Origin: Aporrectodea caliginosa
Lineage: Eukaryota > Annelida > Clitellata > Crassiclitellata > Lumbricidae
DNA: 64,000 bases
Direction of reading: 5' to 3'
NCBI GenBank assembly: GCA_020284085.1
Contig: JACEVL010000100.1
Location: 1,384,209-1,448,208, forward strand
Below, one piece after another: positions 5,963-63,411 of the stretch. Position 1 is the stretch's first letter, and every line of letters begins with the position of its first letter. The position numbers and the translations under genes are program-made. Below the pieces are notes generated by a model. That model saw only the letters and a list, made by a program, of their open reading frames with translations. It was not told the origin of the DNA and searched no databases.

Positions 5963-6632
5963 TTAAGGCAACTTTTTCAGTTTAATCGGTTCAGCATAAA
6001 CTGCACTTGGATCCTGTTTAGCAACGCCTCCACTTTCAGCTCCAGGTTTTACTTCAATCGCTTCCAGATAAATAGGATCTGTAGCCTTAACTGCTTTATC
6101 CACTGGAGTAGATGACTTTGTTGGCTTATTCACTTCAGAATAAATCACACTGGGATCGCCCAATGGGATTGCTGTAGCAAGTGAATAAGTATTCTGTTGA
6201 TCAACAGCAGGAATGGGACTCAGGACAGGGGCAGTAGCAGCATGAGTTTTATCTGCTTTGAACGGTTCTGCATACTCTGTGTTACTGGCTGATGTGGGTG
6301 GCTCGTAGGGTTGGGAATAAATGGGGCTGAGAGAGACGGTTATTTTGTCGGCACCAATCGGCTTTTGTTGGTCTTTCTGTGGGATGTTAACTTCGGCGTA
6401 GACGACGCTTTTGCCCTTTTCAACGGCTTCGCTGGTGGGTTGAACGCTGGCGTAGATGGTGTTATTGGATGGTGTCGGCTGTTTGATCATTTCCACATCA
6501 GTATAGATGGCGTTACCAGGTGTAACAGTACCTTCTGAAGATATGCTGACTGGAAGCGCTGTGGCATATACGGAAGAGACCGTTTCAATCTGTTTTGTGT
6601 TCGTCATCGGTAATTCCTCGTTTCGTCTATCA
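5963..6632 (-). CDS. Receptor A exon: cytoplasmic tail with about ten Tyr motifs
   Basis: A TATGTAG acceptor in phase 2 completes a Tyr codon (KYDRRNEELP). The ~222-residue acidic/proline tail has regularly spaced motifs: VYATA, IYTDV, IYASV, VYAEV, IYSQP, EYAEP, TYSLA, IYSEV, IYLEA, VYAEP. VVYAEV and VIYSEV match (I/V/L/S)xYxx(V/L/I). YxxP sites are of the kind preferred by Crk/Nck/Abl-type SH2 domains (family knowledge). The stop codon is at 5963-5965. No strong AATAAA is seen immediately downstream. Confidence 0.78.
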
Positions 6633-9600
6633 CTACATAAAACCACAAAAGGAGAAGTCTAACCCTTGTCACAGCAAAGTGTGAGACCTAAATAACTTGG
6701 CTTCTGCACATGCCTTGTCAGAAGCGCACCGGACGACTCTTGTTTGCCGTCCCTTACATAATGCAAATCGAATCGCAATCTAACTGTCTATAGATTCGCT
6801 TTCGTTTCACAAGGTTCAATTAATATAGCGAAGTGACACTTTTATTGATTACTAGAAACTTCTTCTTTCATTACAATAACAAACAGAAACACGGCAGTTG
6901 CGAATTCTATCAGATGTCCTTTCTCTTCATTCGACTTTTCACATGAAATAAATGACTAGGTAAAGCTGGTAAACAAATAATTATAATTAACTGCAAATGA
7001 TCGCTACCATTTGGGCCAGCAAATATCGCAACAACAATGGCTGTTTCATTTAAGCTATTTTTATAAATTTAAAAACCGCTCAAATACCAATAAACATATG
7101 TATAAATAATGAATTTCTGGCATTATAATAACTTACTATTTGCGCTTTCGGATGATCACGATGACAGCAGCGACAATGAAAACAACCGCCACCAGTAAAA
7201 GAAAAATTAGGAGAATTTCTCCTGTGGTGAACGATTTGAACAGTCCTACAAAATATTATAGACAAGGTCTTTACAGATCAGTATAACTATAATTACTACC
7301 TCAGCTTAGCCGACTGTAATCGAAAACTTCACATTTTGAAGGCATCACTCGAAAACTAAGAAGGGCACCAGCTTATTCACGAGCGCTGAATGTAGTGCTG
7401 GTTTTAGCTTTATGAAGTGCTAGTAAATAATTCATTCATTCATTCATATCGAACATTTGTATAGCGCCCCTTCAAGAAAACTATTCAGAGGCGCTCCCGA
7501 CTCCAGCATGGCCAAAAAGAACAGTTTTAAGGTGAGAATAGAACATAGGAGAGAAGGTCATAGGAAAAAGGCGAAGTGTGTTGTATTACAATGCGATATA
7601 GTACAATGCAAAACGACACAATACAGTTAACAACGATATATTACAATACAATAAAAAAAAACAGCACAATACTATCTGACATTAACGAAACTTCATTGTA
7701 GTATTTGAAAGGTGTACATTGAAGTCGGACAACACCGCGATCATGGTTATGAGTCATTGAATATGTTAATATGTCTATAAGAATAGCGTAACTGATGTTT
7801 TAGACTTAGCAAAAATTACCTGTTGATGACGATGCGAAAGGAGTTGTTTGATTCTCAGCAAAATGATTTGACGCGTTTTCAGTCATTGTCGAAGATGAAG
7901 CAGTCTGTCTATCAATCTTTCCACTGGCCACTGTGGTTGGAGTAGTAGCAATGGGAGTTTTAGTGGGAGTGGTAGTTGTGATTGGTGCAGTAGCAGTGGA
8001 AGTTTTAGTTGAAATAGTAGTTGTGGTTGGAGTAGTAGCAGTGGAAGTTTTAGTGGAAGTGCCTGTTGTGGTTGGAATAGTAGCAGTGGAAGTTTTAGTG
8101 GAAGTGCCAGTTGTGGTTGGAGTAGTAGCATTGGAAACTTTAGTGACAGTAGTAAGCTCAGTGATGATTACTGTAGTGGTAGAACTAATAGTGGGATATG
8201 TGCGAGCAGTACTAGTTTTTAAGTGTGCGTCAGTTGTTTTTTTCGAGTATTTTGCTGTTTTTGATGATGACGATGATGATGATGATGATGATGACACAGA
8301 GGAATTAAAATCTGCTGATGTCGATGGCAGCATCTCTCCAGTATCACCGATTTCTTTTGTAAAGGCATCAGGTCTCTCTTCTGGAAATATAAATTGTATT
8401 GTATTGTATTTGAACACTTGTTATAGCGCCCCTACCAGATTGCCCATTCAGAGGCGCTCCCGACTACTGCGCGAACGCTGAATCGGGTTTCACGCCGAAG
8501 CGCATGAGCAATTGCAGTGAAGGACTTGCCCAGGGTCCCTACGCGGCGACTTTGAGGTGGATTCAAACCCGCAACCCTCCAGCTGCAAGGCACCGAACAT
8601 ACCCTCAAACCACCGCGCCCCAGTTGTATTGTGATGTATTGTATTGTGTGTTGTATTGTACTCCACGTTTATAATGCGACCGAGCCACCCGCAGTAAAGA
8701 TCCGAGAAATTAATCTCTGATAATCCGACCCGACCGGGAAGCGAACCCGGGGCGCCGGCGCGACGAGCGGGCACCAACCCACTCGGCCACTCAGGATCCT
8801 TGATAAATGGAGAGTAATCGGTAAACAGAAATGCTAACGAAACGAACAACTGCTGCGAAATTTTCATACAAAACTTAAATGGTTTTTCCTTCTGGAAACA
8901 TAAATTCAAGAGTTATTCCCCCAGCATTAAAGTTTTTTTACCACAGATATATTACGTCTTCAAGTACTCTCTGGTTGCACAATTGCCTGCTTTTAAGGCA
9001 ATTCGAGGACTACAGTATGCAGGACAACATTAAATCAGATTTTAAATCACCCTCGGTAACAAATAGCCTTAAGCGAACGTGACTTATCAAAATGCTTCTG
9101 TGGCATTAACTTGGAAAAATATGACATGTCAAGACTCCTTCAATGTTGGCTTATTTCAGAGATTTGAATCACGCGCTAGCACGGTCTGTACAAGGGTCTT
9201 ATATGGCGAGTCACATTCTAACTGGCAGCGGTGGTGAAGGACATATTCATTGGAAAATTAGAAGGATCGGGGTCGTACTGAAGCTTTAAAAACGTTTACA
9301 TTAATTTTACATTTAGAGCACTATGCTGTAAGACACACCTGTTTGGCAGACAATGGCATAATTGAGGCTGCAGTTGCAAGTCCTCCACTTCGGATCATAT
9401 CCGCAAATGGTTCGGTTGTTATCTCCTCTGCATTGTGGATTAATGCAAATGCACTTCTTATCAGAAGACTCGTCGGGATAACCACCGTTCCAGTTAGTGT
9501 AAGTGAGTGCAGCGTCTGATTACAAAACAAAGAGAAACAACAAGATAGGAGGCTTTGAAGATCGTTATAATCGGCAAGTATTTCATTATGGTTTCTTGTT

Positions 9601-10568: not shown

Positions 10569-13500
10569 GCATTATGTATGTATGTATGTATGTATGTATG
10601 CATGCATGTATGTACGTAATGTATGTATATATGTATGCATGTATGTTTGTATGTATGTATGCATGCATGTATGTATGTATGTATGCATGAACCAAAGTAT
10701 GCATGTATGTATGCCTTCTTTTGTTCCGTCTCGTTTCCCTGTTTATCCGCTAGTTCCCGAGTATGACAATTATAGTTCACCTGTGCTATTCCAGATCCAC
10801 TTATTTCGGTGAAGTCCAATCCAATATCTGAAGGTTTGGTTTTCTTTCAGCCGTGGCCAATCCTTTATCGTTTCGAGATCCGTAATAGAAGACAAATCGC
10901 CTCCTAAACGTAAACACTCATTTCGCGCATCATACCAAGTGGCAACTCCTTCACTTGCGACGTAAGACTTGTTGTTTGCTAGGTAACTGGAGACTGACCT
11001 TGAGTCTACAATAGTTATAACGGTAATGTTAGTTTAAGAAAGAACGTCTATATCCAGCTGATTTCATTTACTGACATCCGTCAAGCAACTCTAAAGAGCT
11101 TTTGCTTTGATTCATGCATTTGCAGTGAACAATTTTCAATCATTCAATCTGTGGAAATTTATATAGCGCCCTTCAAGATTTCTACTCGGTGCCATGCCAG
11201 CGGAAAAAGCAGTCTTTAGGAGCTGATAGAACCGAGAAGGAAGGACCCGATGGAGGAAACAAGAGAATAAACATATCACCATGTACAGCAGATCGAAGGA
11301 GACGGCGCCAACCATTGTACGAGACGGTGCAGCAGATCTCACGGAAGTACGCGGGCGCGTCCCCCGATAATCACCTCCAGACCAGGAAGAGATCCGGATA
11401 GAGATGCGCTGGTGTCAGAGAAGCCAGTGCAGGACCTCCCGCATATAGTGCGAGACGCGGTCAGTCTAGGTGAAACCTCATATGAGACGGCTGCCCTTCG
11501 GTGTGCCCTCTCAAGCCGATCAAGCCGGACCCGTAGTAAGTCCGCATATAGATGGAAGAGCAGTAACTGACGGCTTAGGGTGAATGCATGGATAAGAGTA
11601 ACCACAGCGTTGTAGATCAGCAAGCGCAAGACTACCTGGAGCTGGTAGACCTAGTAAGCAACTACGGTTGACGAGATCTATATATATATATATGGCGGGC
11701 CAATGACAACTCCCGGTCCAAGAGGACCCTTAAATAGCGGAAATTTGATGAATATACCAAAATACACTTTTGTGGTGACAGTAAATGGGTAAAAGTACCT
11801 GAATATTCGTAATACTTGTTGTTGTGTCGGTAACTGGAGGCTGACTTTGAATCTGCAATAGTTATTAAAGGTAACCTTAGTCTAAGAACGAACATCCATA
11901 TCTATTTGACTTCATTTACTGACATCTGTTAATCTACACTAATTCCGCTCAAAAGGCACGCAACTAAAACAAATTTTATATCAGCTTGCCAATGGCCAGC
12001 TTTATTCTCCCTCCTTTCTTCAACAAGAAATTACCACTTTTCGGCGTAGGGCATCTATGTGGAATTCGCTATTTCCAGTCTAATAATTATGGCCCCTCGA
12101 ATTTTCTTTTCTAACTGAAAAAACAACTGCGGAATTCATCTTTCCAGCTGCCGGACATAAATATGTAATCTACTGATAAAATATCTTTGCCGTGATATTA
12201 TGTAATGTAATGTAATGTAACAAGACATTTATAAAGCGCCACCTAAGAGTCTCTCAGAGGCGCTCAACACGTGGCCATCAAACAGCTGAAAAGTGCTTCT
12301 TTAAGAGTCGAGAAAAAAACGTATATCCGCGAGCAGCACGCACAGAGGGCGGAAGAGCGTTCCAGATCCGTGGCACCGCAATCGAGAAGTCCCGATCGAC
12401 GAGTAATAGTAACTACCGATAATACTAATTTACAGCAGAAGTTACACATTGTTAACGCACCTGAATATTCGCATATGTAGCGGAAGAGTGACGAGACTTT
12501 ATCAAAGCAGTAGGCCAGCGGTTGTCCATGCTTTGATTCCACACAAGCTCCATCATAAGACTGTTTGGTTGTGACGTCTGAAAGACACGAAACGACTGTT
12601 AGTAGACGACGATGATGGTGGACTGACAATCTTTTACCGGGGTGTTATTATTTGAAGTTGGCGGTTCAAATTGGAACCTGGGCAGAACACTATAATAAAT
12701 TTGAGATTTATATTTTACATCTGTGATGAAATCTATTATCCCATGAAAACACTGACCACACACTGTCAATTCGGAGATAAGGAGGTGATGAACAGGTATG
12801 TGTCCTAGAGGTGTCGTAGTAGTTAGTTGGCCGTAGGGGTTTATGAGGTCTACTGCAGTAGTTACGGATGTCTAGTCTATGTGGATTGCATGGTTTTTGG
12901 CCTATTCGATGAGTACCGAAGTTATAACTACGCCCGATATTCAGCGTCCGAATTATTTGGGATTTTTCAGAGTCTGTGCTCTTTTGCGATGTTCTAAATC
13001 GCTGATCAGAGGAGAGTCGATGCAAGTAGATGTTTCTGGAAGTTTTGTAAACAGATAATATTGTAACTGTAATTAGTAATTTCTGTCACTCTGTAGGGCC
13101 TACCTAATGCGCAACCGATGGCGCACCAAAACCAAACCGTAATTAGGTAATCATTCACAAGATCAGTCCGCTAAGATACATATTGAAATTGAAATCATAA
13201 ACTGAAACTTATGTTACTTTACTGTAAACTGAAGTTACTGAACTCGAAACACTTACCAGTTGGTATCGTTTTGTGACCATTAACCCACGACCATTCCAGA
13301 CTTTCATTAATCGACAGCTTTTGTGCGTCGATGAGGATTGTCTGATTCTCAAGTTCTTGTATTCCTATGAAACTCTCGACAGTACGTTTGCTTTCTAGGC
13401 TATTAACGATGATCAAAGAGGAACCTAGAACAGCTGAGTTGCACCAGGGACTGGCTTCTTCGAAAGACTTACGCACTGGGAGATTATTGGTGCCAAAGAT

Positions 13501-14816
13501 TGTCGTAAAGCAAGTCTGTCCAGAACGTGTGTTGCAGCAGAATGACCTCGTATGTCCTCTGTATAAGCTCGTGCACTGCGCCGCTTCAAGCGACAACGAC
13601 GACCCTACATGAACGAAAAGTAGAGCCATCATCATCACTTAAGATACATATAACAAATCATGATACATTAGAGCCCATGTCAAAGCGTAATTCCATATCT
13701 ATAGCGAAAATATGGTTGTATAGATACCGAATCTAAAGCAATCATCCCGTCATGAGAATTTTCCTAGACTCGGACCCAAACATTGTTAATCGAATAATAA
13801 TTAAATGCAACGATGACTGTTGCGCCTCTGTATTAATAATATAAACGCACAGAAATTTCTGTCTGTGCGTGACTGGCTGACGCGTGCGTGCGTGGTGTTA
13901 CGCCGTTTGCCTGTTATGCTGTTTTCGCCTTCATTGCCTTAGGCTTACGTCATTTCACGTACGTCATCGCAATTATTGCATAGGTTGTCATAGCAACGCC
14001 AGATCATGACGTATTTGTCCTTCTGCATTTCTATATGGGGATGTGCATGGACTTCTGTATAATAGCTGGCTATTATTAAGACGTTTATGGGGTGCGGAGG
14101 GGAAGTGACGGGTCAGCCACACACGAACGCCGCGAGGGACTACGGGAGGGACAGACGGACGTAGGAGGGAGGGAAGGAGGTACGAACGGCAGGGATGGAC
14201 GGCAGGAAAGTACGGGGAGGAGGAAGGGAGGGAGAGAGGAAGAAAGACAGTGGAGAAGCAAGCACTTTCGAATACTGCGTGGGGTCGCTCAAGCCTGGCG
14301 CAGCCAGCGAGTACTCACTGTTAGAGGTCGCTGGAGTCAAAACGAAACCGCTAGGGGTCGCTTGAGCCTGGCGCAGCCAGCGAGAACTCACTGGTTGAGG
14401 TCGCAGTTAGCGAGTAGTCAACGCTAGAGGTCTCAAGATTGATTTCTTTGTATCTCAGTATATTAACTCCGTCGCCAGAGGCGCTGCGTTTCAAAGAGAG
14501 CACAGTTAGCAGATGAGAGGCGGGGAGGGGAGTTCGAGATTTAAATTTAAACCGCCGCGTCTATTCAACTTCGCATGTAATAAAAGTCGGTTGGTGGCGC
14601 TGCTATGAAGCTTAAACAGTCGCAGAGATTCAAATTTGCGTGTAATGGAAGTCCGTAGGTTACGCTGCTATCAAATTTTAGCTGTCGCGTGTGATAACTT
14701 TTGCGCTCGGTATATAAATTTTATAGAAGCTAAAGGCCTTCTAGCAAATCTGTTCCAGTTGAAATACTTTTATTATGATTATGATTATGATTATGTGATT
14801 ATGATTATGATTATGA

Positions 14817-14965: not shown

Positions 14966-15848
14966 ATTATTATTATTATTATTATTATTATGTGTTTGTA
15001 AGTAAATAGAAGTATCTTGAACTTTGGAAAGTTATTTTGGAACAGCTCTCTTTCTGTAGTATCGCACGAAGGGATACTGGTTTTAGAATCCTCAGACACT
15101 TGTGAATCTGATGATAAACGTAAAGCATCTAGTGAAAGATATAAATGGCACATAAGTTTCTCTAATAGCTTCTTGTTGACAAATACAGGCTTCTGGACAC
15201 AAAGGCAGTGCACTGATAGAATTTCCGTTTACTTTGAATCATGCGTCATTACGAAAAATTGGTGAGCGAGGATCAGTGGACGGAATCCTCTGCACAGAAT
15301 CGAACCCGCCATCGTTGACGTTCAGACTCAGTGCGCTACTAACATTACCTCCGTAAGACCATTAACAATACTCTGGTTCTCAACTGTCCAACGACATCAA
15401 TCTATACCCAATTGGCGCTATCTAAAAACAAGAATAACAATATATAATACTTCTGGATTATCTCTGTGTTTGTCAATGTATCTTTCATAATATAGTGCAT
15501 GTTTAAGAACCCGCACTCATATGACTTTCTAACCGATCTAAGCATGTGTATTTCAAGATACTCTGAACAAATACGCTGAACCAAGGTAAAAGCAAATGTG
15601 TGGAAATGCGGTTCCTGCATATTTCTCACAAGTAGCAGAATGCAACCATCGCCGACTCAGCTCAGCAGCTAAGTCAATACAGGAACACAGATCTTCCCGA
15701 TGTATTCTGGACACAGTCTGAGGATAAGTACAGCACTTTCACAATACAAATGGTTCTTGCAATTTATAAAGAAATGAATTTAACATAAATATGTTCACTC
15801 ACCAGCAAAAAGGTTCACAAACAGCAACCATGGCAGTTGCTTCATCAT
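5963..15848 (-). CDS. Receptor copy A: two C-type-lectin-like domains, mucin stalk, TM helix, multi-tyrosine tail (spliced gene)
   Basis: Predicted single-pass type I surface receptor. Exons, in transcript order: 15848-15803, 13604-13257, 12577-12461, optional 11852-11799, 11005-10781, 9515-9339, 8380-7820, 7245-7137, 6632-5963. All junctions are AG/GT, the reading frame stays open, and the protein is about 768 residues (750 without the 54-nt exon). Order: signal peptide (MMKQLPWLLFVNLF); CTLD1 ending in SWVNGH and FRYICE; CTLD2 with YWIGL, WIWNST, YTNWNGGYPD and YAIVC; a T/S/P stalk; a ~25-residue hydrophobic helix followed by RKRK; a long cytoplasmic tail with IYTDV, IYASV, VYAEV, IYSQP, EYAEP, TYSLA, IYSEV, IYLEA and VYAEP. 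VVYAEV and VIYSEV fit the ITIM consensus. The sugar-binding EPN/QPD and WND motifs of Ca-dependent lectins are absent, so the ligand is unclear. Inference: a phosphotyrosine-signalling recognition receptor of the immune or allorecognition kind. No orthologue is claimed. Confidence 0.8.
7137..7245 (-). CDS. Receptor A exon: transmembrane helix
   Basis: The 109-nt exon enters in phase 1 and leaves in phase 2. It encodes ILLIFLLLVAVVFIVAAVIVII followed by the stop-transfer RKRK. The donor GTAAGT splits a TA|N codon; without splicing the next triplet would be TAG, so splicing is required to reach the tail. The B homologue is 21026-21137. Confidence 0.78.
7430..7560 (-). mobile_element. LINE/SINE 3' tail in a receptor A intron
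   Basis: (ATTC)n followed by TTGTATAGCGCCCCTTCAAG and CAGAGGCGCTC, i.e. the reversed GCGCTATA-type 3' end with an (AATG)n tail on the minus strand. Confidence 0.6.
7820..8380 (-). CDS. Receptor A exon: mucin-like Ser/Thr/Pro stalk
   Basis: The 561-nt phase 1-1 exon starts EERPDAF after a TTCCAG acceptor. It contains a run of about twelve serines, then roughly four copies of a 15-residue repeat of the type TTPTTTGTSTKTSTA, ending PFASSSTG at a GTAATT donor. The composition predicts dense O-glycosylation and an extended stalk between CTLD2 and the membrane. The 45-bp unit is prone to copy-number change. Confidence 0.75.
8395..8625 (-). mobile_element. tRNA-derived SINE with LINE-like 3' end
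   Basis: The minus strand has a head with GCGGTGGTTTGAGGGTATG and B box GGGTTTGAATCC, then a body ending GAGCGCCTCTGAATGGGC...GGGGCGCTATAACAAGTG and an (ATACA)n tail. A second copy is at 23850-24068. Confidence 0.7.
8625..8800 (-). mobile_element. tRNA-derived SINE, different family
   Basis: The minus strand begins CTGAGTGGCCGAGTGGGT with B box CCGGGTTCGCTTCCCGG and ends in (ATACA)n. Confidence 0.6.
9339..9515 (-). CDS. Receptor A exon: C-terminal half of CTLD2
   Basis: The 177-nt phase 1-1 exon is read in a frame with no ATG. It encodes LTYTNWNGGYPDESS, a cysteine-rich insert, and KWRTCNCSLNYAIVCQ, the end of a CTLD. The calcium-ligand EPN and WND are replaced by YPD and WRT. Homologues are 22819-22986 (B) and 37612-37794 (C). 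Confidence 0.78.
10385..10715. repeat. (ATGT)n microsatellite
   Basis: Near-perfect ATGT/GTAT repeats, longest at 10471-10566, inside a receptor A intron. The long apparent reading frames here are repeat artefacts. Confidence 0.95.
10781..11005 (-). CDS. Receptor A exon: N-terminal half of CTLD2
   Basis: The 225-nt phase 1-1 exon encodes WYDARNECLRLGGDL followed by RYWIGLHRNKWIWNST, the canonical helix-2 and WIGL core of a C-type-lectin fold. The donor is GTGAAC and the acceptor TTGTAG. Homologous exons are at 24382-24576 (B) and 38924-39139 (C). Confidence 0.8.
11150..11760 (-). mobile_element. Degenerate CR1/L2-like LINE 3' fragment
   Basis: The minus strand reads FRYLRVLLDRELSLARHI, LIYNAVVTLIHAF and LYADLLRVRLDRLERAHRRAA, characteristic of the RT C-terminus, then the 3' end GGGCGCTATATAAATTTCC. 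Frame is broken. Confidence 0.6.
11799..11852 (-). CDS. Receptor A candidate 54-nt chimeric mini-exon
   Basis: The sequence between a TTGCAG acceptor and a GTACTT donor is 18 codons long, phase 1 at both ends, and frame-neutral. Its 5' half copies the start of the CTLD2 exon (DSKSASSY) and its 3' half ends YYEYSG like the end of CTLD1. It could be a deletion-fusion remnant of a duplicated exon pair. Use in mRNA is unknown. Confidence 0.4.
12195..12420 (-). mobile_element. LINE 3' end with (ATTAC)n tail
   Basis: The minus strand ends GAGCGCCTCTGAG...GGTGGCGCTTTATAAATGTC followed by ATTACATTACATTACAT. It lies in the receptor A intron directly beside the CTLD1 exon. Confidence 0.6.
12461..12577 (-). 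CDS. Receptor A exon 3: C-terminal part of CTLD1
   Basis: The 117-nt phase 1-1 exon encodes a segment with GACVES, LAYCFDK and the terminal FRYICEYSG, typical of the last CTLD strands. The acceptor is TTTCAG and the donor GTGCGT. Homologous exons are at 25175-25294 (B) and 44884-45009 (C). Confidence 0.75.
13257..13604 (-). CDS. Receptor A exon 2: N-terminal part of CTLD1
   Basis: The 348-nt exon (116 codons, phase 1 to 1) is bounded by a TGTAG acceptor and a GTAAGT donor. It encodes cysteines in SFCCNTRSGQTC, an SFEEASPWC helix region, SSLIIVN, and EWSWVNGH in place of the usual WIGL/WVDG core. Paralogous exons are 26203-26559 (B) and 50219-50575 (C). Confidence 0.75.
14090..14250. repeat. 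Purine-rich GGGA/GGAA tract
   Basis: Strongly strand-asymmetric GGGAGG/GGAAGG low-complexity sequence. Confidence 0.7.
14275..14520. repeat. Local repeat block shared with 16480-16640
   Basis: GGTCGCT(C/T)(A/G)AGCCTGGCGCAGCCAGCGAG units occur at about 14283 and 14357. The following CAACGCTAGAGGTCT ... AGAGAGCACAGTTAGCAGA matches the block at 16560-16640. Confidence 0.6.
14770..14992. repeat. (ATT)n microsatellite
   Basis: A short GATTAT prelude, then long ATT repeats with few interruptions. Confidence 0.95.
15255..15600 (-). mobile_element. tRNA-derived SINE shared by intron 1 of A and B
   Basis: Minus strand: TAATGTTAGTAGCGCACTGAG and GCGGGTTCGATTCTG (A and B boxes). A homologous copy with matching flanks is at 27290-27600 in B's first intron, so insertion predates the A/B duplication. 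Confidence 0.6.
15803..15848 (-). CDS. Receptor A exon 1: start codon and signal peptide
   Basis: ATG ATG AAG opens a 15-residue hydrophobic leader (MMKQLPWLLFVNLFA) and ends at a GTGAGT donor in phase 1. Copy B has the matching leader MKQLFGHLFVGLLA at 27878-27920. The second ATG aligns with B's start, so translation could begin one codon later. Confidence 0.75.
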
Positions 15849-18390: not shown

Positions 18391-18399
18391 TAGGTCTTT

Positions 18400-20050: not shown

Positions 20051-23000
20051 CTACATAAACCATAAAAGTGTAAGACTGACCCTTGTAACGGCTAAATGTG
20101 AGACTCACATTAATGGGTTCTGGCGATGTGTTGAATTTTCATGAGTCTAAACGCAAGGTGCTGTGCGGGTACGTGGCAACAGCATCCAAAACCACGTCAT
20201 TGTCTTTTTAAATTGGATTCACGCTAAGTTCAATGCTTTCTATTTACCCCCGCCCCCAGCATATACACAACATCACTTCATAGAAGCAAATATCAATATA
20301 GTTGGTTTCCAGCTTAGTGACGTAAGGTCCCTATGACTTAAGGTCCCTATAAAGAAAAGGTGCTATATAAATTTTCCGCTGTATGAATACAATCAGTGGA
20401 TGCGTCCGAGGAAGGTTCAAAAAAGTACACTCAACGTTACAAGGGGAGTGAACAAACCCAAACATATCACAAACAATTATTTCTAAACCAATATTGAATG
20501 TCTCTATAATTAGGACCAAGGCGAGTCTTAATCTCGTCATTGATGGAGCTGGTGAACTACTGTTAGGCCCAACGTTTAGCGTCTATACATCAGCAGAGTC
20601 GAATCGCTATGTTAGTCATATGTCTGTAGATTAGCCTCATGCAGCTTGGCAATATTGCGAAATACCAATTTAGTTAATCCTATGAACTTCTGCTTTCGTT
20701 AATAAAAATATGGCAGTCGCAAATTCAGTTTGCCTTTCTTTTCTTTTCGACAATCAGGAGAAAATACATGTTTGATAACGCATCTAACTCTGCGCGTTTA
20801 TATAACTATTATAGCCTGTATTTGAAGCATCTCACTAAAATCTTAACCACATGCAGCCAAGTAACTTAGTAAGTAAGTAACTAATTAAGTAAATAACTAC
20901 ATATTTTCGACACCATAATTTATGGTCCAACAAATAGTACAACAGCGACATCTGTTTTTGAACGTTGAAATAACTACTAAAATATGCACAGAGTATGAAT
21001 TCCTAATAATTTTACAATCACTTACTGTCTTCGCTTTCGGAAGATCAAGATGACGACAACGATAATGAAAACAATAGCCACAAATAAAAGAAGGATGAGG
21101 AGAAGTTCAATTGAATTAAATATTGAGTTGAATATTCCTAAAAAAAGGCAATTGAAAAACACGCCATGTGTAATGCAGTAAAGACAGTGCAAAAGAACAG
21201 TGTTAAGGCATCAAAACTTATTGCTGAATAGTGTAGTTTAGTATAGTACATGCAGTTGAATAGTGTAGTTTAGTATAGTGCATGTAGTTGAATAGTGTAG
21301 TTTAGTATAGTACATGTAGTTGAATAGTGCAGTTTAGTATAGTACATGTAGTTGAATAGTGTAGTTTAGTATAGTACATGTAGTTGAATAGTGTAGTTTA
21401 GTATAGTACATGTACTTGAATAGTGTAGTTTAGTATAGTACATGTAGTTGAATATTGTAGTTTAGTATAGTACATGTAGTTGAATAGTGTAGTTTAGTAT
21501 AGTACATGTAGTTGATAGTGCAGTTTAGTATAGTACATGTAGTTGAATAGTGCAGTTTAGTATAGTACATGTAGTTGAATAGTGCAGTTTAGTATAGTAG
21601 TACATGTAGTTGTATAGTGTAGTTTAGGATGTAGTTGTATAGTGTAGTTTAGTATAGTACATGTACTTGAATAGTGTAGTTTAGTATAGTACATGTAGTT
21701 GAATATTGTAGTTTAGTATAGTACATGTAGTTGAATAGTGTAGTTTAGTATAGTACATGTAGTTGAATAGTGCAGTTTAGTATAGTACATGTAGTTGAAT
21801 AGTGCAGTTTAGTATAGTACATGTAGTTGAATAGTGCAGTTTAGTATAGTACATGTAGTTGAATAGTGCAGTTTAGTATAGTAGGCCTACATGTAGTTGT
21901 ATAGTGTAGTTTAGTATAGTACATGTAGCTGAATAGTGTAGTTTAGCATAGTGTGAGTGTTTATAAATACAATACAGCGCAATGCACAACGATATAATGA
22001 AGTACAATAAAGCGAAGCACAATAATTATTAGCTGGCATTAAACGAACCTTCTATACCGTAGTTCAATGGTAAACTTTGATGCACGACATCACGGCAATC
22101 TTAGGTGGCGTGTTTTAAATATGCTAAAATGACTATAAGAATAGCGGTGGTAATTTTTAGATTCAACATAAAAATTACCTGATGATGATAATAAGAAAAC
22201 CGTTGTTTGCTGCTCCGAAAAATGACTTGACGGTTCCTGAGTCATAGATGAAGTTGACGCAGTCTTTGTAGCAATTTCTTTAGCAGTAGTCGCGGCAAAT
22301 GTAGTCACATATGGAGTTTTCAAAAGAGATGTAGTCTTGGAAGTGGTGGCTACGGTTGGAGTAGTACTAGTTTTATTGGTAGTGACTGTGGTAGCAGTCG
22401 TGGATTCGATGCGGACAGTACTAGATTTTGATTTTTTACCTATTGCTGTTGTTGTACTAATTGCTGATGACGTTGTAGTTTTTGTTGCTGCTGATGATGG
22501 TGTTGACGATGATGATGAGCTGCTCAACTTGATAGTGGTATAAGCAGAAGGGGAGACAGAGGTCTTAAAATCTCCTGATGTCGATGACAATATTTGTTCT
22601 TCTGGAAATATAAAATCTACAGTAGTAATATATTATTCAGTAAAGATAAATGTTCACTATACGCTCAACGACTGCAATAAATAGTGTGGCAGCTATTCAA
22701 ACTGGAAGCTGTGGAGATGGATTGATAAAATTAGCAGGATCGAAGTCTTTCGGAAGCTGTAGAAAAGTGCACATTAATTTTACGTTTGCATTTAGAGCTC
22801 TTAATCGCTAAGACGCACCTTTTTGGCAGACAATGGCATACATATCATCGCATTTGCAGGTACTCCATTTGCGGTCATTTCTCGCTTCGTTTTCTCTGCT
22901 GAATTGCGGACTAAAGCAAATGCATTGTTTGTCAGAAGTCTCGTCAGGGAAACCATTGTTCCAGTTAGTGTAAGTGAGCGCAGCGCCTAATTACACAAAA

Positions 23001-26000
23001 ACCATTGAAGATCGTTTAAATCGCCTATCCTTGTTTCATTACAATATAATGGTTTTAATCTTGAGGATGTAAGCCGACTTTGCTCTTGTCTGCTTTTCTT
23101 CCACGTATTTTGACAATAAGGAATTAAGTAGAAATCCGTTAATAACAAGAGGACTTGAATGTTGCTTTTGATCATAAAATTCTCTGAGTACTTTGGTCTC
23201 TATTTATTGGCTCACACCTATATAAAGTTGTGTAGCAACACAGTGTACTCTCTGGATTTTGACTCCCTGCCTCTAGATTGTGTTTTGATTAAGCGCCTGC
23301 GAATAAGCTGGTTCCCGCGACTTCGCTTTTGTGGGCGCTGTAGAAATATCGAGTTTACGATTACGATCACGATTACGATTACTGAAAATTATCAATTATA
23401 TCATGAGAACTTCTATAGCGCTATGATTTAAAAGACATCAGTCGATGATCCTTTTACAGTTATAATTGAAACTCTGTCCTTTCTGTGTACGTCACTTTGA
23501 CCATTTCGTTCTCAGTTTTCGACACCTTTTTCAAATTGCTCATCCACCATAGGCTGCCTCTCAGTCTTAGCGGATTCTGGATTTTGAACTGATTACGTCA
23601 TCGTTTTGATATGCAATCGTTTGGTGCCTTGTCCATTAGACATAGGCTCGATAGAAGTTATTTATTACAAGAAGTTAAGTCGTACGTTGTTCGTACTTAA
23701 ATTTTTGCTTTAAGATCTCTCAAAGAAATAATGGTGTAATATGAGGAGTATGTATGTATGTATGTATGTGTGAGCCAATATGTATGTATGTATGTACATC
23801 AGTCGATGATCGCTTTACAGTTATAATTGACTTAAATGTTCTCTGGTCGCACGGATGAGCACTTGTTATAGCGCCCCTTCAAGATTTCTACTCAGAGGCG
23901 TTCCCGACTACAGCGCGTACACTGAATCGGAGTTTCACGCCGAAGCGCATGAGCAATTGCGAGTGAAGGACTTGCCCAGGGTCCCTACGCGGCGGCTTGA
24001 GGTGGATTCGAACCCACAACCCTCCGGCTGCAAGGCACCTAACATACCCCTACACCACCCCGCCCCATTTGATTAACATGTTATCCCTTGTAGGCAACAT
24101 TCAGGTCCTCTTGTTTGGTCCGCCAAAGGTATAAGAAGGCGCAGACTTGCGTCAGCAAATGTCCGATTGATTGAAGAATTTAATCTCAATCTGTAACTGC
24201 CTGAGAATAACCACCAGCGATATTAACGCATAAGTACAAAACAAAGTAAGAAATGCGACCAGAGAACATTTAAGTCAAATGTATGCAATCTGACCAATCA
24301 GTCAGATTTGCTCAACATGAACCTTGTTCAGTATGACTCACTGTGTTTCGCCTAGTTCTACAGAATGGAAATATACATCACCTGAGCTGCTCCAAATCCA
24401 CTTATTTCGGCGAAGTCCAATCCAATATCTCTCGGTTTCGTTCAGAAATGACCAATCCTTTGTCTCTCGGAGATTCTTAATATAACCCAAGTCTGCTCCC
24501 AATACTAAACACTTCTTTCGGGCTTCATACCAAGTGTACGGTATATTTGCGACGTAATGTTTGTTGTGACTGGAGGCTGATTTCGAATATGCAATAGCAA
24601 AGAAAGTTAGTCATAAGTTAAGAACAAACATACATATCCAGTTAAATAAACTGACATCCGTCAAACTGCTCTTAAGAACATTAGCTTTGATTCCTCCATT
24701 GGGAGCTGCAAGTATAGCAAGTCTACAAAACAATTAAATTGTTTTGTAGACTTGCTATACTTGCAGCTCCCAATGGAGCTATACTTGCAGCTCCCAATGG
24801 AGCTATACTTCCGATACTGCTGAGCTGTTCCATTCTTTAGGCATCGAACTAGAATTACTAGATCAAATTCAAGATCAATTCCAATTTTGCTCCATCTTCC
24901 CGTCACCGATAAACTAGAGCTGTGCGTGTTAGGTCCATCTTTGGAAAATTCACAATAATTCCCAGTAATATATTGTTCGTTTCTGCATGGTCCTTCACTT
25001 CTTGTTGTCTGATTTCCGAAAGAGCTGACGGATTCATATTTCCGGATACCTGATGTAGAATTGTCGTTACACAAATACCTTAACTATCGCGAAATTACTA
25101 ATTGTTACTAATAATACTACTAAGCTATGGTAGTAATAATGCAAATTGTAACAAGTATAAATCCGCTAATGCACCTGGATATTCGCATATGAAGCCAAGC
25201 CGGGACGTGACGTTACCAAAACAGTAGACCAGCGATTGTCCATGCCTCATGACACAAGCTTCATCATGAAACTGTTCGGCTGTGTTTCTAGCATCTGAAA
25301 GACATCAAGAGGTTGTAAGTAGGTGATGATGAAAAGCCGACCGTGATTTGGCAATGTATCATTTGAGGTCTGCGATTAAGACTAGAGCAGAGGGAGAAAG
25401 AAATCGGCTCTTAGATGACTATATTGAGCTCACACTTTCAGTGGGGAAATAAGGCGGCGAGTTACAGATTAGCACATCCGACCTGACATAAAAATATGTA
25501 GCAGTAAATAGTTCGCACCAATGGTAACTTCTATGGCATATTGAAGATAAGCAAACAGTCTTTAAGGAATGCTTTTATTTTGCATGTCTGTCTCTTTTCT
25601 CTTCTAGGAGCGAATCAGCGTCAACTTTGGATAACTAGCCACTCTAGGTGCTTTGCCTGTGTTGGCTCATCAGCTTGGAACTCTCTTCCCCAGTCTCTTC
25701 GTCTTGAGTTACTAGCCCTCTCTCCTTCCCAGTTCCGTAGACGTCTTAAGACTTTCTTGTACCCTGATGCAGGCACTGATGCAGGTCGAGAGCGCTGCTG
25801 ATTTTTGAGCGGCGCTATACAAAAGTTCGATTACAATTACAATTACACGATATAAATTGTAACCGCAGCGATTTATAATACCATGCTGTATGGATGTGTA
25901 ATGGTTGTGAGCCGGAGAGTGGAGAACGCGAGTTGAATGAAGAACTATCCACAAGTGACACGAAGTCAACGCCAAAGTTGTTTTCGCCTGTGGCGGTTAC

Positions 26001-27920
26001 GGATGGAATCCTTGTCTAGAAATGTCTGTGTGAAGCGCATAGTTCGAAGTTTAACCTAGGACTATCGTGGGTTTTGTTGTTGATATTTCATATTGCTGTT
26101 CGACACTCTGATATCACCAATTATTATAGTCAAGGTGTTTCTGAATTATTGCTTGAGACTCTTTTATATTGCTTCACTGTAACGGATCTCGTGGACACTT
26201 ACCTGTTGATACGTCTGGAGAATATGGATGACCATTAACCCATGACCATTTCGAACGTTTACTTGTCGACAGCATTCGTGCGTCCATAATGATCGTCTCA
26301 TTCGGCAACGCTTTTCCTATGAAGCCTTCGACATTTCTTTGGCTTTCTTCACTATTGATGACAATCAAATTGGAACCAGGAACATGTTCTTTGCACCAGC
26401 GACTGGCTGCTTTGAAAGGCTTACGCACTGGGTCACTGTTGGCGGCATGAAATGTTGTAAAGCAAGTCCATCCAGAACTTGTGTTGGGGCAGTATGACGT
26501 ATTATATATTCCTCTGGGTAAATCCTGGCACTTCGCCTCTTCCAATGACAGCCACAAACCTACAAACGAAGTATAAGTCTAGTGTCATCGAAGACACAAA
26601 TCACGCATCATCGTACATGGAGGCCTTACTTATTCACCGAAGTCTGATCTAAAGCAGGACAACATATTCTACTGCTTGGTGACCAAGTCAAATGAACTTC
26701 TTTCGGCTCGGTCACAACCACTGACCTTTTATTCAAAATCAAACAAACAATGTTAAGTTTGATTACATACATGCCCTAAACGATTGCAATTACGTCTCTG
26801 TATGTAACTCTTACAGCGGGACCTAAAGCCGTAATTCTGCAGATTTACATGTATAATTGAAAATGAGTCTTCTAAAATTTAAACAACCCCTTACAAGATA
26901 TGAAACTTTTTATTGTTACTTTGGAAAGTTATTTTGGAACACGTCATGCTTATTTCTGTTCTAGCACTCTGACAAACGTTTTAACAACTGACAAACTTTA
27001 TTTTCCCATAAGCACAATGCCTATAACAAGTATAGCTTGACTTATTACATTTCGGTGTATTGGCTATAGTACAGAGGAGACCCAAAATTGGAATGAGCCC
27101 CTATTAATTAAGGTCAGCCTATTTAACTAACTCGTAACGCGCTCTGGTTTGAGATTCCTTTAATACGAGCTGCAATGTTCGGATACACGTAAGATATCTC
27201 GTTTTCATAGCCCAAGATATGGGTCGTTCATTACCCTCTCTTAGGTCCTTGTTGGCTATTCCGGACTCCTCAACAGGGAGCCAATGCATCGCAGGACTTG
27301 CCGTTTATTTAGCAGCTGGTGACGGAGACAAATCTTCACGAACAACGTTCCCTGGATCGTTTTACACGAAGTCCGCAAAGCAGACTCGAATCCGCAATCG
27401 CTGAAGTTCAGACCCAGCGCCGATACCACAACCGCACCGGTAAGACAATTAACAATGGCCTGGTTCACAACCGTTCTACGACCGTATGCTATATAAATTG
27501 GCGCTATATAAATACCAATGGCAATACACACTGTTACATATGCTACAATTGCGTGTCAATGTATGTGTCAAACTGATCTAAGCAAATGCATCTCAAGACA
27601 CTTTGAACTATTTGCTGAACAACGCCAAACGCAACTGCGCGTAACGGCGGCGACAATACACGGATCGCAGAATCCACCTAATTCCGACCGAGTTCAACAG
27701 CTGACTCGGGGTTCTCGCACTGGGAGCGCTACTGAATGGCCTCGGCTGTGAGCGGCGCTATATAAATTACTAATTACATTTACATTAGATTACATTCGTA
27801 ATAAGTACAGCACTTGCATCACAGCAGAAGGATTTCTTATAGGTTTTAAAATCTACGAAATCGGTTTATTCACTTACCAGCAAGAAGGCCTACAAACAGA
27901 TGCCCAAACAGTTGTTTCAT
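19609..27920 (-). CDS. Receptor copy B: paralogue of A with a shortened tail
   Basis: Exons in transcript order: 27920-27878 (signal MKQLFGHLFVGLLA), 26559-26203 and 25294-25175 (CTLD1), 24576-24382 and 22986-22819 (CTLD2), 22601-22179 (mucin stalk), 21137-21026 (TM helix, RKRRQ), 20050-19609 (tail). Frame and phases match A throughout; the product is about 619 residues. CTLD2 keeps WYEARKKC, RYWIGL, YTNWNNGFPDE and YAIVCQ. The tail keeps AYATV, IYTDV, VYADV and EYAEP. Two A tyrosines are replaced (TVDAGV for IYASV, STDSKP for IYSQP). A ~50-residue middle block is deleted and a frameshift near 19615-19625 gives an early stop, removing the last VYAEP although its codons remain downstream. Probably expressed and diverging, or in early decay. 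A possible extra exon lies at about 24800-25049. Confidence 0.72.
21026..21137 (-). CDS. Receptor B exon: transmembrane helix
   Basis: The 112-nt exon (phase 1 in, phase 2 out) encodes IELLLILLLFVAIVFIIVVV and LIFRKRR. The GTAAGT donor is at the same codon position as in A. Confidence 0.75.
21222..21957. repeat. 32-bp minisatellite in receptor B intron
   Basis: About 21-22 copies of GTAGTTGAATAGTGTAG plus TTTAGTATAGTACAT, with small length variants. One unit at 21882 carries an inserted GGCCTA. Confidence 0.92.
22179..22601 (-). CDS. Receptor B exon: mucin-like stalk
   Basis: The 423-nt phase 1-1 exon begins EEQILSSTSGDFKTSV after TTCCAG and ends VFLLSSSG at GTAATT. It is Ser/Thr-rich throughout. 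It lacks the clean 15-residue repeat array of A, so stalk length differs between paralogues. Confidence 0.72.
22819..22986 (-). CDS. Receptor B exon: C-terminal half of CTLD2
   Basis: The 168-nt phase 1-1 exon encodes LTYTNWNNGFPDETSD, CICFSPQ, and KWSTCKCDDMYAIVCQ, colinear with A 9339-9515 but lacking two of its cysteines. Confidence 0.75.
23850..24068 (-). mobile_element. tRNA-derived SINE with LINE-like 3' end
   Basis: Same family as 8395-8625: B box GGGTTCGAATCC and 3' end GAACGCCTCTGAGTAG...GGGGCGCTATAACAAGTGC on the minus strand. It lies in a receptor B intron. Confidence 0.72.
24382..24576 (-). CDS. Receptor B exon: N-terminal half of CTLD2 with shifted acceptor
   Basis: Homologous to A 10781-11005. 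The acceptor position used in A and C (GCAG|ATTC) is GCAT|ATTC here, so it is dead. An AG 12 nt inside (AAATCAG|CC) restores the phase-1 frame and removes four residues. The exon encodes TWYEARKKCLVLGADL and RYWIGLRRNKWIWSSS. Confidence 0.65.
24694..24801. repeat. Perfect 42-bp palindrome plus 24-bp tandem duplication
   Basis: 24694-24735 is the exact reverse complement of 24737-24778 with a one-base centre at 24736. The last 24 bp of the right arm is then repeated in direct orientation (24778-24801). Confidence 0.95.
24800..25049 (-). CDS. Receptor B possible extra exon of unknown domain
   Basis: Downstream of a CATCAG acceptor an open frame in phase 1 reads IRKYESVSSFGNQ, then NYCEFSKDGPN, WSKIGIDLEFDLVILVRC. 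A related but broken stretch in copy C (about 39360-39560) reads FSIDGPSKES and KVWRKYGE. I do not recognise the domain. No convincing donor was found; the frame runs into the palindrome at 24694-24778. It may be a lost or optional exon. Confidence 0.35.
25175..25294 (-). CDS. Receptor B exon: C-terminal part of CTLD1
   Basis: The 120-nt phase 1-1 exon encodes DEACVMRHGQSLVYCFGN and ends LGFICEYPG before GTGCAT. It matches A 12461-12577. Confidence 0.72.
25560..25860 (+). mobile_element. CR1/L2-like LINE 3' end
   Basis: The plus frame reads SRCFACVGSSAWNSLPQSLRL and FRRRLKTFLYP, then stop, then TGAGCGGCGCTATACAAAAG and (ATTAC)n. This is the classic RT C-terminus and tail of this LINE group, inside a receptor B intron. 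Confidence 0.75.
26203..26559 (-). CDS. Receptor B exon: N-terminal part of CTLD1
   Basis: The 357-nt phase 1-1 exon has GTAAGT donor. It encodes LWLSLEEAKC, CPNTSSGWTCFTTF, AASRWCKEH, SNLIVINSEES and KWSWVNGH, colinear with A exon 2. Confidence 0.75.
27290..27790. mobile_element. SINE (minus) and LINE tail (plus) in receptor B intron 1
   Basis: 27290-27440 on minus is tRNA-like (GCGCTGGGTCTGAAC, GCGGATTCGAGTC). 27600-27790 on plus ends GTGAGCGGCGCTATATAAATTAC with (ATTAC)-like repeats. Confidence 0.55.
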
Positions 27921-37611: not shown

Positions 37612-37794
37612 CTTTTTGGCAGATAATGGCATACGGATGGTCGCAGTTGCAGGGCTGCAATTTTCGGCCATACTCCGCTCCACATATGTTTTCTCCGTTT
37701 TCTGTGGAGCATTGCGGGATAATGCAACTGCATTGTTCACCAGAAGACGCGTTGGGATAACCTTCTTCCCAGTTTGCGTAAGTGACTGCAGCAC
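37612..37794 (-). pseudogene. Receptor C exon: C-terminal half of CTLD2
   Basis: The 183-nt phase 1-1 exon encodes VTYANWEEGYPNASSG, several cysteines (CSCIIPQC) and CNCDHPYAIICQK, colinear with A and B. Confidence 0.7.
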
Positions 37795-44883: not shown

Positions 44884-45009
44884 CTGACATTTCGCATATG
44901 TAGCGAAATGTCGACCAGGTATTCTTGACACTGAAAGCTGGTGATTTTTGCCGAACGTACAATGCCGCACCATTTGCTTCGGGGTCTTTTACGGCTTCGT
45001 CTATAACGT
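44884..45009 (-). pseudogene. Receptor C exon: C-terminal part of CTLD1, cysteine pair lost
   Basis: The 126-nt phase 1-1 exon encodes DVIDEAVKDPEANGAAL and ends STFRYICEMSG. The two internal cysteines of A (GACVES and LAYCFD) are both replaced, while the terminal CTLD cysteine stays. Confidence 0.65.
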
Positions 45010-50218: not shown

Positions 50219-50575
50219 CCTTTGGTATGTTTTCGTGGCCATTCACCCACGAAAACTCCCGACTTTCGCTTGTTCGCAGTTTTCTTGCGTCAGTGATGAC
50301 CATCTGATTCTGTACTTGCAGCCTATCTGCAAAACGTTCAACGAAGTGTTGGTCGCCTGCGTTCTTTATGACGACTAAAGAGGATCCGGGTACGTTTACT
50401 TTGCACCAGTCGCTGGCTCTTTCGAATGATGTACGCACTGGAAGACGCAGAGTGGTAAAAACTGGCCCAAAAAGGCAAGTCTTTCCAGATCTTTCACTTT
50501 CATAACAATTAGATATGATACTTATTTCCCTGGGGGACTCACTCCAGTGCACCAAGGTTAGTGACAGCCACGAAC
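50219..50575 (-). pseudogene. Receptor C exon: N-terminal part of CTLD1
   Basis: The 357-nt phase 1-1 open exon after ATGCAG encodes SWLSLTLVHWSE, RSGKTCLFGPVF, ASDWCKVN, SSLVVIKN and EFSWVNGHENIPK, and ends at GTAATA. It is intact as an exon but belongs to a broken gene. Confidence 0.7.
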
Positions 50576-61599: not shown

Positions 61600-61695
61600 T
61601 TTTCTGTATGATCAGGCCTGGCTTGGGAGCGCCTCTGAGTAGAGCCCTTGAAGAGGCGCTATATAAATTTTATGATTGATTGATTGATTGATAAA
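61600..61695 (+). mobile_element. LINE/SINE 3' tail
   Basis: GGGAGCGCCTCTGAGTAGAG, AAGAGGCGCTATATAAATTT and (TGAT)n, in plus orientation. Confidence 0.7.
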
Positions 61696-61735
61696 CTGCA
61701 TTTTTTCATGTGTACTTCCGTGAACGTCCATTTGC

Positions 61736-62015
61736 AGGTTTTACTTCTTTCGCTTCCAGAAATTTGCATGGGTGGCTCTTAAAGAGTGGAATAAATGGGA
61801 TCGAGACAGACGTCTCTTTTGCTGGCACTCCTTGGCATTTGTTAGACTTCGTGTGGATCAACGTAGACGACGTTTATGTCCATGTCAACCGCGTGGTTGC
61901 GCGTTGGCGTTGATGGTGTTATTGGAAGGCGTTGGATGTTGGGTCAATTCCAACTCAGTAGGCGTATACATGTAGATAGGAACCGTATCATCTGAAGGTC
62001 TTTTGTCTGGCATTA
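61736..62015 (-). pseudogene. Additional decayed tail-exon relic
   Basis: The minus strand matches the middle of the receptor tails (VYTPTELELTQHPTPSNNT, then degraded with stops). Short tetranucleotide CATA-like repeats lie on its 3' side at about 61520-61590, as in A-C. This points to another, mostly deleted array member. Confidence 0.5.
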
Positions 62016-62054
62016 AGTTCGCACTAAATTAAGCCAAGTCAGTTTAGTCTCTTC

Positions 62055-62130: not shown

Positions 62131-62729
62131 ATGAAAGTATATCCTTTATTGTACCAATTGTTAACCACATTTTTGTTTATATTCTACAATGGCCTATATG
62201 CTTATACACAGGCCTATAATCTGGTAGGCTACACAGGCCTCTGGATCTAATTAACCAGCAATTTAAAATAGACGATATCAAGTTGGCGCTGCGAGTAGGG
62301 CCTCTGTGCAATTAGGCTAATTGCAAATGTCACCGGCAGTTTTTGTAGCACACACTGCCTGCTATGTACTGATAATGGTATGTTCCGGTTATAAGCTAAA
62401 TGACTAGGCAATGCATAATTAATGACAAGTCTAGCAGGAAGACTAGCGTTTGGCGCACGGGGATTTCCCGTGTTTACAATGAATCCGTCCGTGATTTCAG
62501 TACACATGTATCTGCGTTTTACTGATATTATGATTTTTCTTTCGTGTCTTTTGTTAATGCGACTTGAAATTTTCCACAAACGCCATTCCCGCTGAACAAC
62601 ACATGGTCCATTTCCTCAATCGTGTTTGAACTTATATAGCGACAAAGCGACACTTCATCAGGACCGTCATTGTAATCGTACATTTACGTAGCACCTCTAC
62701 CAAGAGCATCATTCTGCGGCTTTTAAGAC

Positions 62730-63411
62730 TTAAGACGACTTTTTCAGTTTTATTGGATCTGAATAAACTGCATTTGGGGCCTGTGTAGCAACGCCTCCAC
62801 TTTCAGCTCCATGTTTTACATCAATCGCTTCCAGATAAATAGGATCTGTAGGTTTAACTGCTTTACCAACTGGTGCAGATGACTGTGTTGGCTTATTCGG
62901 TTCAGAATAAATCGCATTGGTATCGCCCAATTAAATTGTTGTAGCTTGCGAATAAATATTCTGTGGATCTGGAGCTTTATGATGGTTAAGAGCAGGTGCA
63001 CTAGCAGTTGATGTTTTATCTGGTTTGAACGGTTCTGCATACTCTGTGTTACTGGTTGACGTAGATAGCTGACAGGGTTGGGAATAAATGGGGCTGAGAC
63101 ATGCGGTTATCTTGTCGGCACACCTTGACTGTTGTCTGTTCTTCTGTGGAAAGTCTAGTTCGGCGTAGATGACGCTTTTGCCCATGTCAACCGCGTCGCA
63201 GGTGGGTTGAACGATGGCGTAGATGGTGTTGTTGGAATGCATTGGTCGTTGAGTCATTTCCACAACAGTAGGCCTACAGATGGTGTTACCAGGTAGAACA
63301 GTGCTCTCTGACGCTCTGTTGACTGGAACCACGGTTGCATGTGCATGTGCCGAAGAGACAGTTTCGCTCTGTTGTGTGTTCTTCGTTGGTGATCCGTCAT
63401 GTCGTCTAGCA
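62730..63411 (-). pseudogene. Receptor copy D: cytoplasmic tail exon with in-frame stop
   Basis: A TTTGTAG acceptor begins the exon: ARRHDGSPTKNTQQSETVSS. It retains IYAIV, IYAEL, IYSQP, EYAEP and IYSQA, then meets TAA at 62931 where A has Pro. The same frame continues beyond with IYSEP, IYLEA and VYSDP to 62730. The IYTDV of A became ICRPTVV by insertion of a GGCCTA element. The rest of the gene lies beyond the right edge, so it may be a truncated functional tail or a pseudogene. Confidence 0.6.

Follow-up and report, generated by a model that had tools for sequence, protein, structure and literature searches.

A tandem family of putative inhibitory receptors with paired C-type-lectin-like domains and tyrosine-rich tails in the annelid Aporrectodea caliginosa

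Inhibitory receptors whose tails carry immunoreceptor tyrosine-based inhibitory motifs (ITIMs) are best known from vertebrates, and the invertebrate cases that we have met described, in the sections of PMC12065747 devoted to them, are allorecognition receptors built on immunoglobulin (Ig) domains. According to the same sections, the Botryllus FcoR proteins of the fuhc locus are type I transmembrane (TM) receptors with long tails bearing ITIM, hemi-immunoreceptor tyrosine-based activation motif (hemITAM) or core tyrosine motifs, and such motifs are also present on candidates of the Hydractinia Alr locus (Alr family size from excerpts of PMC11999971). Tandem tyrosines of ITIM and immunoreceptor tyrosine-based switch motif (ITSM) type are found in SIRP-alpha, PD-1 and other vertebrate ITIM/ITSM receptors, while the Biomphalaria CTL/IgSF/FN3 clusters are composed of diverse, clustered single-pass TM genes, some of which encode a C-type-lectin-like domain (CTLD), as presented in the main text of PMC10875847. 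Here we describe a gene family that shares features with each of these systems, located in a 64,000-nucleotide stretch of contig JACEVL010000100.1 (assembly GCA_020284085.1) of Aporrectodea caliginosa, the whole of which is referred to below as the window. The family is best read, with confidence tipped somewhat in favour of this interpretation, as a fast-turnover family of type I, putative inhibitory SH2-docking receptors of apparently narrow distribution.

Six-frame self-comparison, DNA comparison of four regions and reading of the minus strand identified one gene family on the minus strand of the window, represented by two complete and several broken copies. A first-pass annotation of the same DNA had claimed at least four tandem minus-strand copies; the tandem family is confirmed, with A and B as the complete copies and C and D broken. 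The architecture it ascribed to all copies, consisting of two CTLDs, a Ser/Thr-rich stalk, one TM helix and a tyrosine-rich tail, is present in A and B; C is without a working stalk, TM segment or tail and D consists of the tail exon alone. Copy A is a complete gene of eight exons (15845-5963, minus strand) encoding 749 residues, with all seven introns bounded by GT-AG, intron phases of 1, 1, 1, 1, 1, 1 and 2, and a spliced product free of internal stops. Its exons encode, in order, a signal peptide, CTLD1 (two exons), CTLD2 (two exons), stalk, TM helix and tail:

15803..15845, minus strand: copy A exon 1, start codon and signal peptide MKQLPWLLFVNLFA, phase-1 donor
13257..13604, minus strand: copy A exon 2, first part of CTLD1
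12461..12577, minus strand: copy A exon 3, second part of CTLD1
10781..11005, minus strand: copy A exon 4, first part of CTLD2, with the WIGL motif
9339..9515, minus strand: copy A exon 5, second part of CTLD2, CxC...CxC
7820..8380, minus strand: copy A exon 6, Ser/Thr-rich stalk, with a 45-bp tandem repeat at 7932-8145
7137..7245, minus strand: copy A exon 7, TM helix and RKRK stop-transfer
5963..6632, minus strand: copy A exon 8, cytoplasmic tail with 11 tyrosines, stop codon

Copy B (27920-19609, minus strand; 619 residues) consists of the same eight exons in the same phases, all open and without an internal stop. Its exon-4 acceptor is a different AG from that used in A, with the frame kept, and its tail is shortened, apparently via an internal deletion. 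The signal-peptide exons of both copies (15845-15803 in A, 27920-27878 in B) were recovered by matching the upstream regions and are an addition to the first-pass annotation. Repetition of eight phase-compatible exons in two copies makes chance hard to invoke.

27878..27920, minus strand: copy B exon 1, signal peptide MKQLFGHLFVGLLA
26203..26559, minus strand: copy B exon 2, first part of CTLD1
25175..25294, minus strand: copy B exon 3, second part of CTLD1
24382..24576, minus strand: copy B exon 4, first part of CTLD2, acceptor shifted from its position in A
22819..22986, minus strand: copy B exon 5, second part of CTLD2
22179..22601, minus strand: copy B exon 6, stalk
21026..21137, minus strand: copy B exon 7, TM helix
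19609..20050, minus strand: copy B exon 8, shortened tail with 4 tyrosines

Two further elements lie within these genes. Intron 3 of copy A contains a partial duplicate of the start of exon 4 together with its upstream intron (11807-11940, minus strand). An apparently dispersed repeat, probably a short interspersed nuclear element, is present in both genes (8411-8637 in A and 23856-24081 in B, minus strand; 88% alike) and is easily mistaken for a shared exon, a candidate rejected because this similarity exceeds that of the exons and because the repeat lies in intron 5 of A and in intron 4 of B. Scored against consensus patterns, the B copy of the repeat has tRNA-like box B and box A whereas the A copy gives no match to the box B pattern; scanning of the window with Rfam at gathering scores and for tRNAs gave no match.

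The exon chain is supported by a sequence from outside the window. In a search of about 5.8 billion proteins (2300 candidates), the sole relative of the A ectodomain at E <= 0.01 was P0001, a protein of 618 residues from a 2278-base contig, from which the signal peptide and the first part of exon 2 are missing. P0001 forms one continuous frame through CTLD1, CTLD2, stalk, TM helix and tail, aligned to A exons 2-8, and is 65% identical to A overall (64% in CTLD1, 70% in CTLD2 and 66% in the tail). One frame over seven exons is most simply read as a spliced transcript, a retrocopy being the alternative, and its continuity supports the splicing model of A and B. CTLD, TM and tail exons are thus joined in a single frame in a transcript-like sequence, in agreement with the gene structure proposed in the first-pass annotation. 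A profile of A, B and P0001 from which most of the stalk was omitted again gave P0001 as the single match at E <= 1 among the 7992 candidates scored, and NCBIfam gave no match for P0001. Using the tails of A, B and D as query, 11 further tails were detected at E <= 1, with E values from 5e-52 to 9e-16 (5243 candidates), while a tail profile run against genome contigs and viral contigs gave 28 and 49 pattern matches, respectively, with no relative confirmed among them.

The two ectodomain units differ in how readily they are assigned to the C-type-lectin fold. CTLD2 alone exceeds the gathering cut-off of Pfam Lectin_C (PF00059; 22.6 bits) in all three window copies that retain it, with 36.0 bits in A, 44.3 in B and 29.4 in C. 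In the alignment it shows a WIGL core, and its third and fourth cysteines are accompanied by an additional CxC pair. Its profile matches the yolk sac IgY receptor (3e-16) and macrophage mannose receptor 1 (MRC1; 1.3e-13) in the PDB. CTLD1 is above the same cut-off in one of four sequences, B (24.0 bits), P0001 (19.1) and C (18.8) falling below it and A being unmatched. A CTLD1 profile of these four gave 19 weak PDB matches, headed by 15 CTLD proteins (E 0.011-0.46) and ending with four ResA oxidoreductases, and profile comparison detected no homology between CTLD1 and CTLD2. Lectin_C was the only Pfam family above cut-off, including in residues 1-331 of copy A. An AlphaFold2 model of P0001 with 11 window exon rows was set aside (mean predicted local distance difference test 43.4, predicted template-modelling score 0.26) and, the model being too poor, the fold assignment rests on sequence profiles. 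Of the two lectin-like folds previously annotated, these profiles indicate that CTLD2 is a clear C-type-lectin-like domain and CTLD1 probably a divergent one. Calcium-dependent sugar-binding C-type lectins possess EPN or QPD and WND motifs. As had been claimed, such motifs are lacking here: EPN, QPD, EPD, QPN and WND do not occur in any of the four ectodomains of A, B, C and P0001.

Between the CTLDs and the membrane, the stalk comprises 186, 140 and 110 residues in A, B and P0001, with a Ser plus Thr content of 51% in both A and B and 36% in P0001. The annotated difference between copies in stalk and tyrosines is therefore borne out, as the tyrosine sets also differ. A long Ser/Thr-rich stalk, together with the frequent occurrence of CTLDs in extracellular matrix proteins, would suit surface proteins with a structural or mucin-like role in mucus, in the skeleton or on gametes, in which the tail would serve trafficking and the tyrosine motifs would be incidental. 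We consider this decidedly improbable, since the TM helix and basic stop-transfer are retained in A, B and P0001 and since the tail is more strongly conserved at its tyrosines than elsewhere, with their spacing kept, as detailed below. Activating receptors coupled to ITAM adaptors carry a charged residue within the TM helix. As read from the sequence, the TM helices of A and B are uncharged, and pairing with an ITAM adaptor is therefore unlikely and was rejected as an explanation of the family.

The 11 tyrosines of the copy A tail comprise four YxxV, four YxxP and three other sites, so the ten YxxV/YxxP sites claimed as a maximum in the first-pass annotation are an overcount. Using strict patterns for ITIM ([SIVL]xYxx[ILV]) and ITSM (TxYxx[VI]), two ITIMs and one ITSM are found in each of A, B and P0001, and one of each in D up to its stop. 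Compared with shuffled tails the ITIM/ITSM count is clearly elevated in B but not in A; in A, enrichment above shuffles is observed for Y[ATSV]x[VIL] (P 0.006) and for the four YxxP sites (P 0.02).

Conservation was assessed in an alignment of 15 tails (A, B, D and P0001-P0012), for which P0001, P0003, P0004, P0007, P0009 and P0011 were cut to the tail, the divergent last residues of B were removed and all A columns were kept. Identity to A averages 84% over the 11 tyrosine columns, compared with 58% over the 211 other columns (permutation P 0.0012, a guide since columns of related sequences are not independent). Tyrosine is kept at Y2 in 12 of 14 aligned sequences, at Y3 in 12 of 14 and at Y4 in 10 of 12, as well as in SPIYSQP (9/10), TEYAEP (9/9) and AVYAEP (5/5), with Y1 (6/12) and the QPYEPP site (5/9) less well kept. 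Spacing was compared in 13 tails, A and P0001-P0012, B and D not being included. The Y2-Y3 gap is 16-17 residues in all 11 tails having both sites and the Y3-Y4 gap is 18 in nine of nine (counted by eye, with P0011, whose Y4 is unclear, left out). A run of gaps of 17-18-27-4-11 is exact in A, in P0005 and, with one extra tyrosine inside, in P0001; P0003 deviates from it by one, and in P0002 and P0006, both of which are without the sixth site, the last two gaps fuse to give 17-18-27-15. At the sequence level, the tail tyrosines are conserved in both identity and spacing.

Which partner these tyrosines would serve is less certain. The main rival to inhibition is that the receptors are adaptor-docking or switch receptors, the tail mainly binding SAP-like or Crk/Nck/Grb2-like adaptors through ITSM and YxxP sites in adhesion, uptake or activation; this is possible, although we regard it as rather doubtful. 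Consistent with such docking, the ITSM form TxYxxV/I recurs at Y2/Y3, the three YxxP tyrosines listed above are well kept, YxxP sites exceed shuffles in A, and the CD244 ITSM pulled down SAP, GRB2 and phosphatases in the experiments excerpted from PMC3958483. Conversely, the apparently intact copy B has one YxxP left compared with three Yxx[ILV], and the conserved spacing has its centre at Y2-Y4 in addition to the YxxP sites. We favour SHP-type inhibition with moderate confidence, and the function proposed in the first-pass annotation, inhibitory or adaptor-docking, continues to be the best fit to the motifs.

In an inhibitory receptor of this type, the two non-calcium CTLDs would bind a protein, or non-classical, ligand, with an O-glycosylated stalk keeping them at a distance from the cell. 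Src-type kinases would phosphorylate the ITSM/ITIM cluster Y2-Y3-Y4, which could then recruit a SHP-type tandem-SH2 phosphatase and damp a neighbouring activating receptor, and the distal YxxP sites may add Crk/Nck-like adaptors. Tandem duplication and decay would continue to alter the copies and their tyrosine sets, as suggested by two intact genes, one wreck and tail-only pieces. A SIRP-alpha peptide containing ITIM1 and ITIM2 binds the tandem SH2 domains of SHP-2 in the relevant passages of PMC3958483, and Y2-Y3 (TIYADV...TIYASV) resembles this peptide in three of the five tails compared (of 15): A (shuffle P 0.015), P0002 (P 0.002) and P0012 (P 0.001). In the part of PMC10369915 dealing with human SHP2, the N-SH2 domain favours a hydrophobic residue at +3 and, at -2, one of I, L or V; in one peptide, binding gained from a change to Ala or Thr at +1, while the screen preferred a large +1 residue and disfavoured Glu at +2.

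Selection on the intact genes was estimated from A and B. The ratio of nonsynonymous to synonymous substitution rates (dN/dS) is 0.63 (bootstrap 0.51-0.78) over 547 codons, the TM exon not being included, and is below 1 in 1000 of 1000 bootstraps. By segment, the ratio is 0.48 (0.28-0.81) in CTLD2, 0.82 (0.53-1.35) in CTLD1, 0.53 in the stalk and 0.80 (0.51-1.30) in the tail, with 0.53 (0.36-0.80) for the tails of A and D. The genes are constrained overall, yet fast-evolving, and dN/dS gives no demonstration of positive selection. Ratios of 0.5-0.8, high for some segments, would also be compatible with an array that is mostly dead, its pseudogenes retained by chance among transposons, as would the broken state of C and D and the retroelements in the gaps. 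This explanation is highly improbable, given that every exon of A and B is open and joined at GT-AG junctions and that their overall ratio stayed below 1 in every bootstrap. Of the birth-and-death family that had been proposed, the pattern of intact, shortened and broken copies and the conserved candidate docking tyrosines find support.

Several observations weigh against a family of inhibitory receptors with paired CTLDs. In A, neither the strict ITIMs nor the ITSM, taken singly, exceed shuffles (P 0.13 and 0.15), CTLD1 fails to reach the Pfam cut-off in P0001 and in C and has no match in A, and the A-B dN/dS intervals of CTLD1 and of the tail include 1. In P0001 the best match to the SIRP-alpha peptide lies at Y4 (P 0.015), and the match in P0003 does not exceed chance (P 0.16). 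Tandem SH2 pairs were picked by a spacing of 23-30 residues in the portion of PMC3958483 concerned; the Y2-Y3 and Y3-Y4 gaps of A, 17 and 18, are below this range, and each gap of 24-29 in A involves at least one site that is neither ITIM nor ITSM. Y2 and Y3 have A or T at -2, and the A sites YAEV and YSEV have Glu at +2, so that the tail motifs match the N-SH2 preferences given in that part of PMC10369915 only in part. Inhibitory signalling, SH2 binding and ligand type are all proposed from motifs and by inference.

The remaining copies are incomplete. In copy C, exons 2-5 survive with open frames and with AG and GT at their borders, inserted sequence having dispersed them over 13 kb. Stops and the insertion of a repeat disrupt its stalk exon, its CTLD1 has lost two conserved cysteines, no TM exon is recognisable, and an upstream scan found no signal-peptide exon resembling MKQL. 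Copy D is a tail exon alone, at the window edge, in which a stop precedes the distal part.

50220..50573, minus strand: copy C exon 2 (in-frame part), first part of CTLD1
44884..45009, minus strand: copy C exon 3, second part of CTLD1, two conserved cysteines gone
38925..39137, minus strand: copy C exon 4 (in-frame part), first part of CTLD2
37613..37792, minus strand: copy C exon 5 (in-frame part), second part of CTLD2
35573..36567, minus strand: copy C stalk-exon remains, with stops and a repeat insertion
35045..35156, minus strand: copy C tail-end remnant
62727..63413, minus strand: copy D tail exon, stop near 62928 after 'SQATTI', A-like sequence continuing past the stop
61668..62022, minus strand: degenerate tail relic adjoining copy D

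Repeats surround these copies. Between exons 3 and 4 of C lies an uninterrupted reverse-transcriptase frame of 1025 residues (41513-44590, plus strand; RVT_1 6.9e-12), to which two partial copies at about 39850-41100 and at 58589-60129 are related. A second reverse-transcriptase family occurs at 56326-57777 (minus), 4220-5094 (plus) and 46683-47617 (minus), and comprises one long frame (RVT_1 7.5e-23), one piece just below the Pfam cut-off and one recognised by similarity only. Tandem satellites are present at 33811-34520 (119-bp unit, six copies at 98%) and 21225-21952 (32-bp unit, about 23 copies), with pieces related to the 119-bp unit recurring beside copy A, at 5259-5476 and 18399-18816. 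A segment within the C stalk-exon remains (36014-36384) is nearly alike to 47119-47508 in opposite orientation, most pieces being 90-100% identical at the protein level.

Comparison with known systems places the family between several of them. SIRP-alpha, PD-1 and other vertebrate ITIM/ITSM receptors have Ig ectodomains, and vertebrate type II C-type-lectin receptors with an ITIM, for example Ly49 and CLEC12A, have one CTLD and carry the ITIM at the N-terminus. The latter are alike in combining CTLD and ITIM, whereas the present family is type I with two CTLDs. The mannose receptor family, defined by cysteine-rich and FnII domains and 8-10 CTLDs, is among the best PDB matches of CTLD2; membership was rejected, as residues 1-331 of A gave only Lectin_C above cut-off and the gene model contains two CTLD units. 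Phosphotyrosine spacing is 24 in the SIRP-alpha peptide, as given in the excerpted text of PMC3958483, and 25 in PD-1 (Y223, Y248), compared with 17-18 here. The Biomphalaria clusters are nearest in fold and clustering but differ in having Ig and FN3 domains, and the words ITIM and tyrosine are absent from the main text of PMC10875847. Among the matches listed in the open-licence PMC literature, including sponge, tunicate, amphioxus, mollusc, sea urchin and cnidarian work, no description of an invertebrate receptor with two CTLDs and an ITIM-type tail was found.

The ectodomains of FcoR and Alr are built of Ig domains, with sushi domains in FcoR, in the sections of PMC12065747 cited above, in contrast to the two CTLDs and mucin-like stalk of this family, in which Lectin_C was the sole Pfam family above cut-off and no Ig-superfamily ectodomain was detected. 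For the immune or allorecognition locus suggested in the first-pass annotation, the family would be a candidate. A bolder proposal, which we think improbable as it stands, is that the locus could be the C-type-lectin equivalent of the histocompatibility complexes that other invertebrates build on Ig domains. The array would vary between haplotypes, its paired CTLDs would recognise ligands of self or microbial origin, an inhibitory threshold would be set by copies whose tails are full, shortened or lost, and the SIRP-like tandem tail would have been reached independently. The family offers a concrete set of candidate phosphosites and a locus to genotype. If the reading as putative inhibitory receptors is true, a type I receptor with two non-calcium CTLDs and a multi-site ITSM/ITIM tail, tandem-duplicated with loss of sites, would show that this signalling logic can also be carried by a different recognition fold. 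Botryllus FcoR and Hydractinia Alr are nearest in logic, and the family may work like them and like SIRP/Siglec receptors while lying, by its predicted fold, outside the Ig families.

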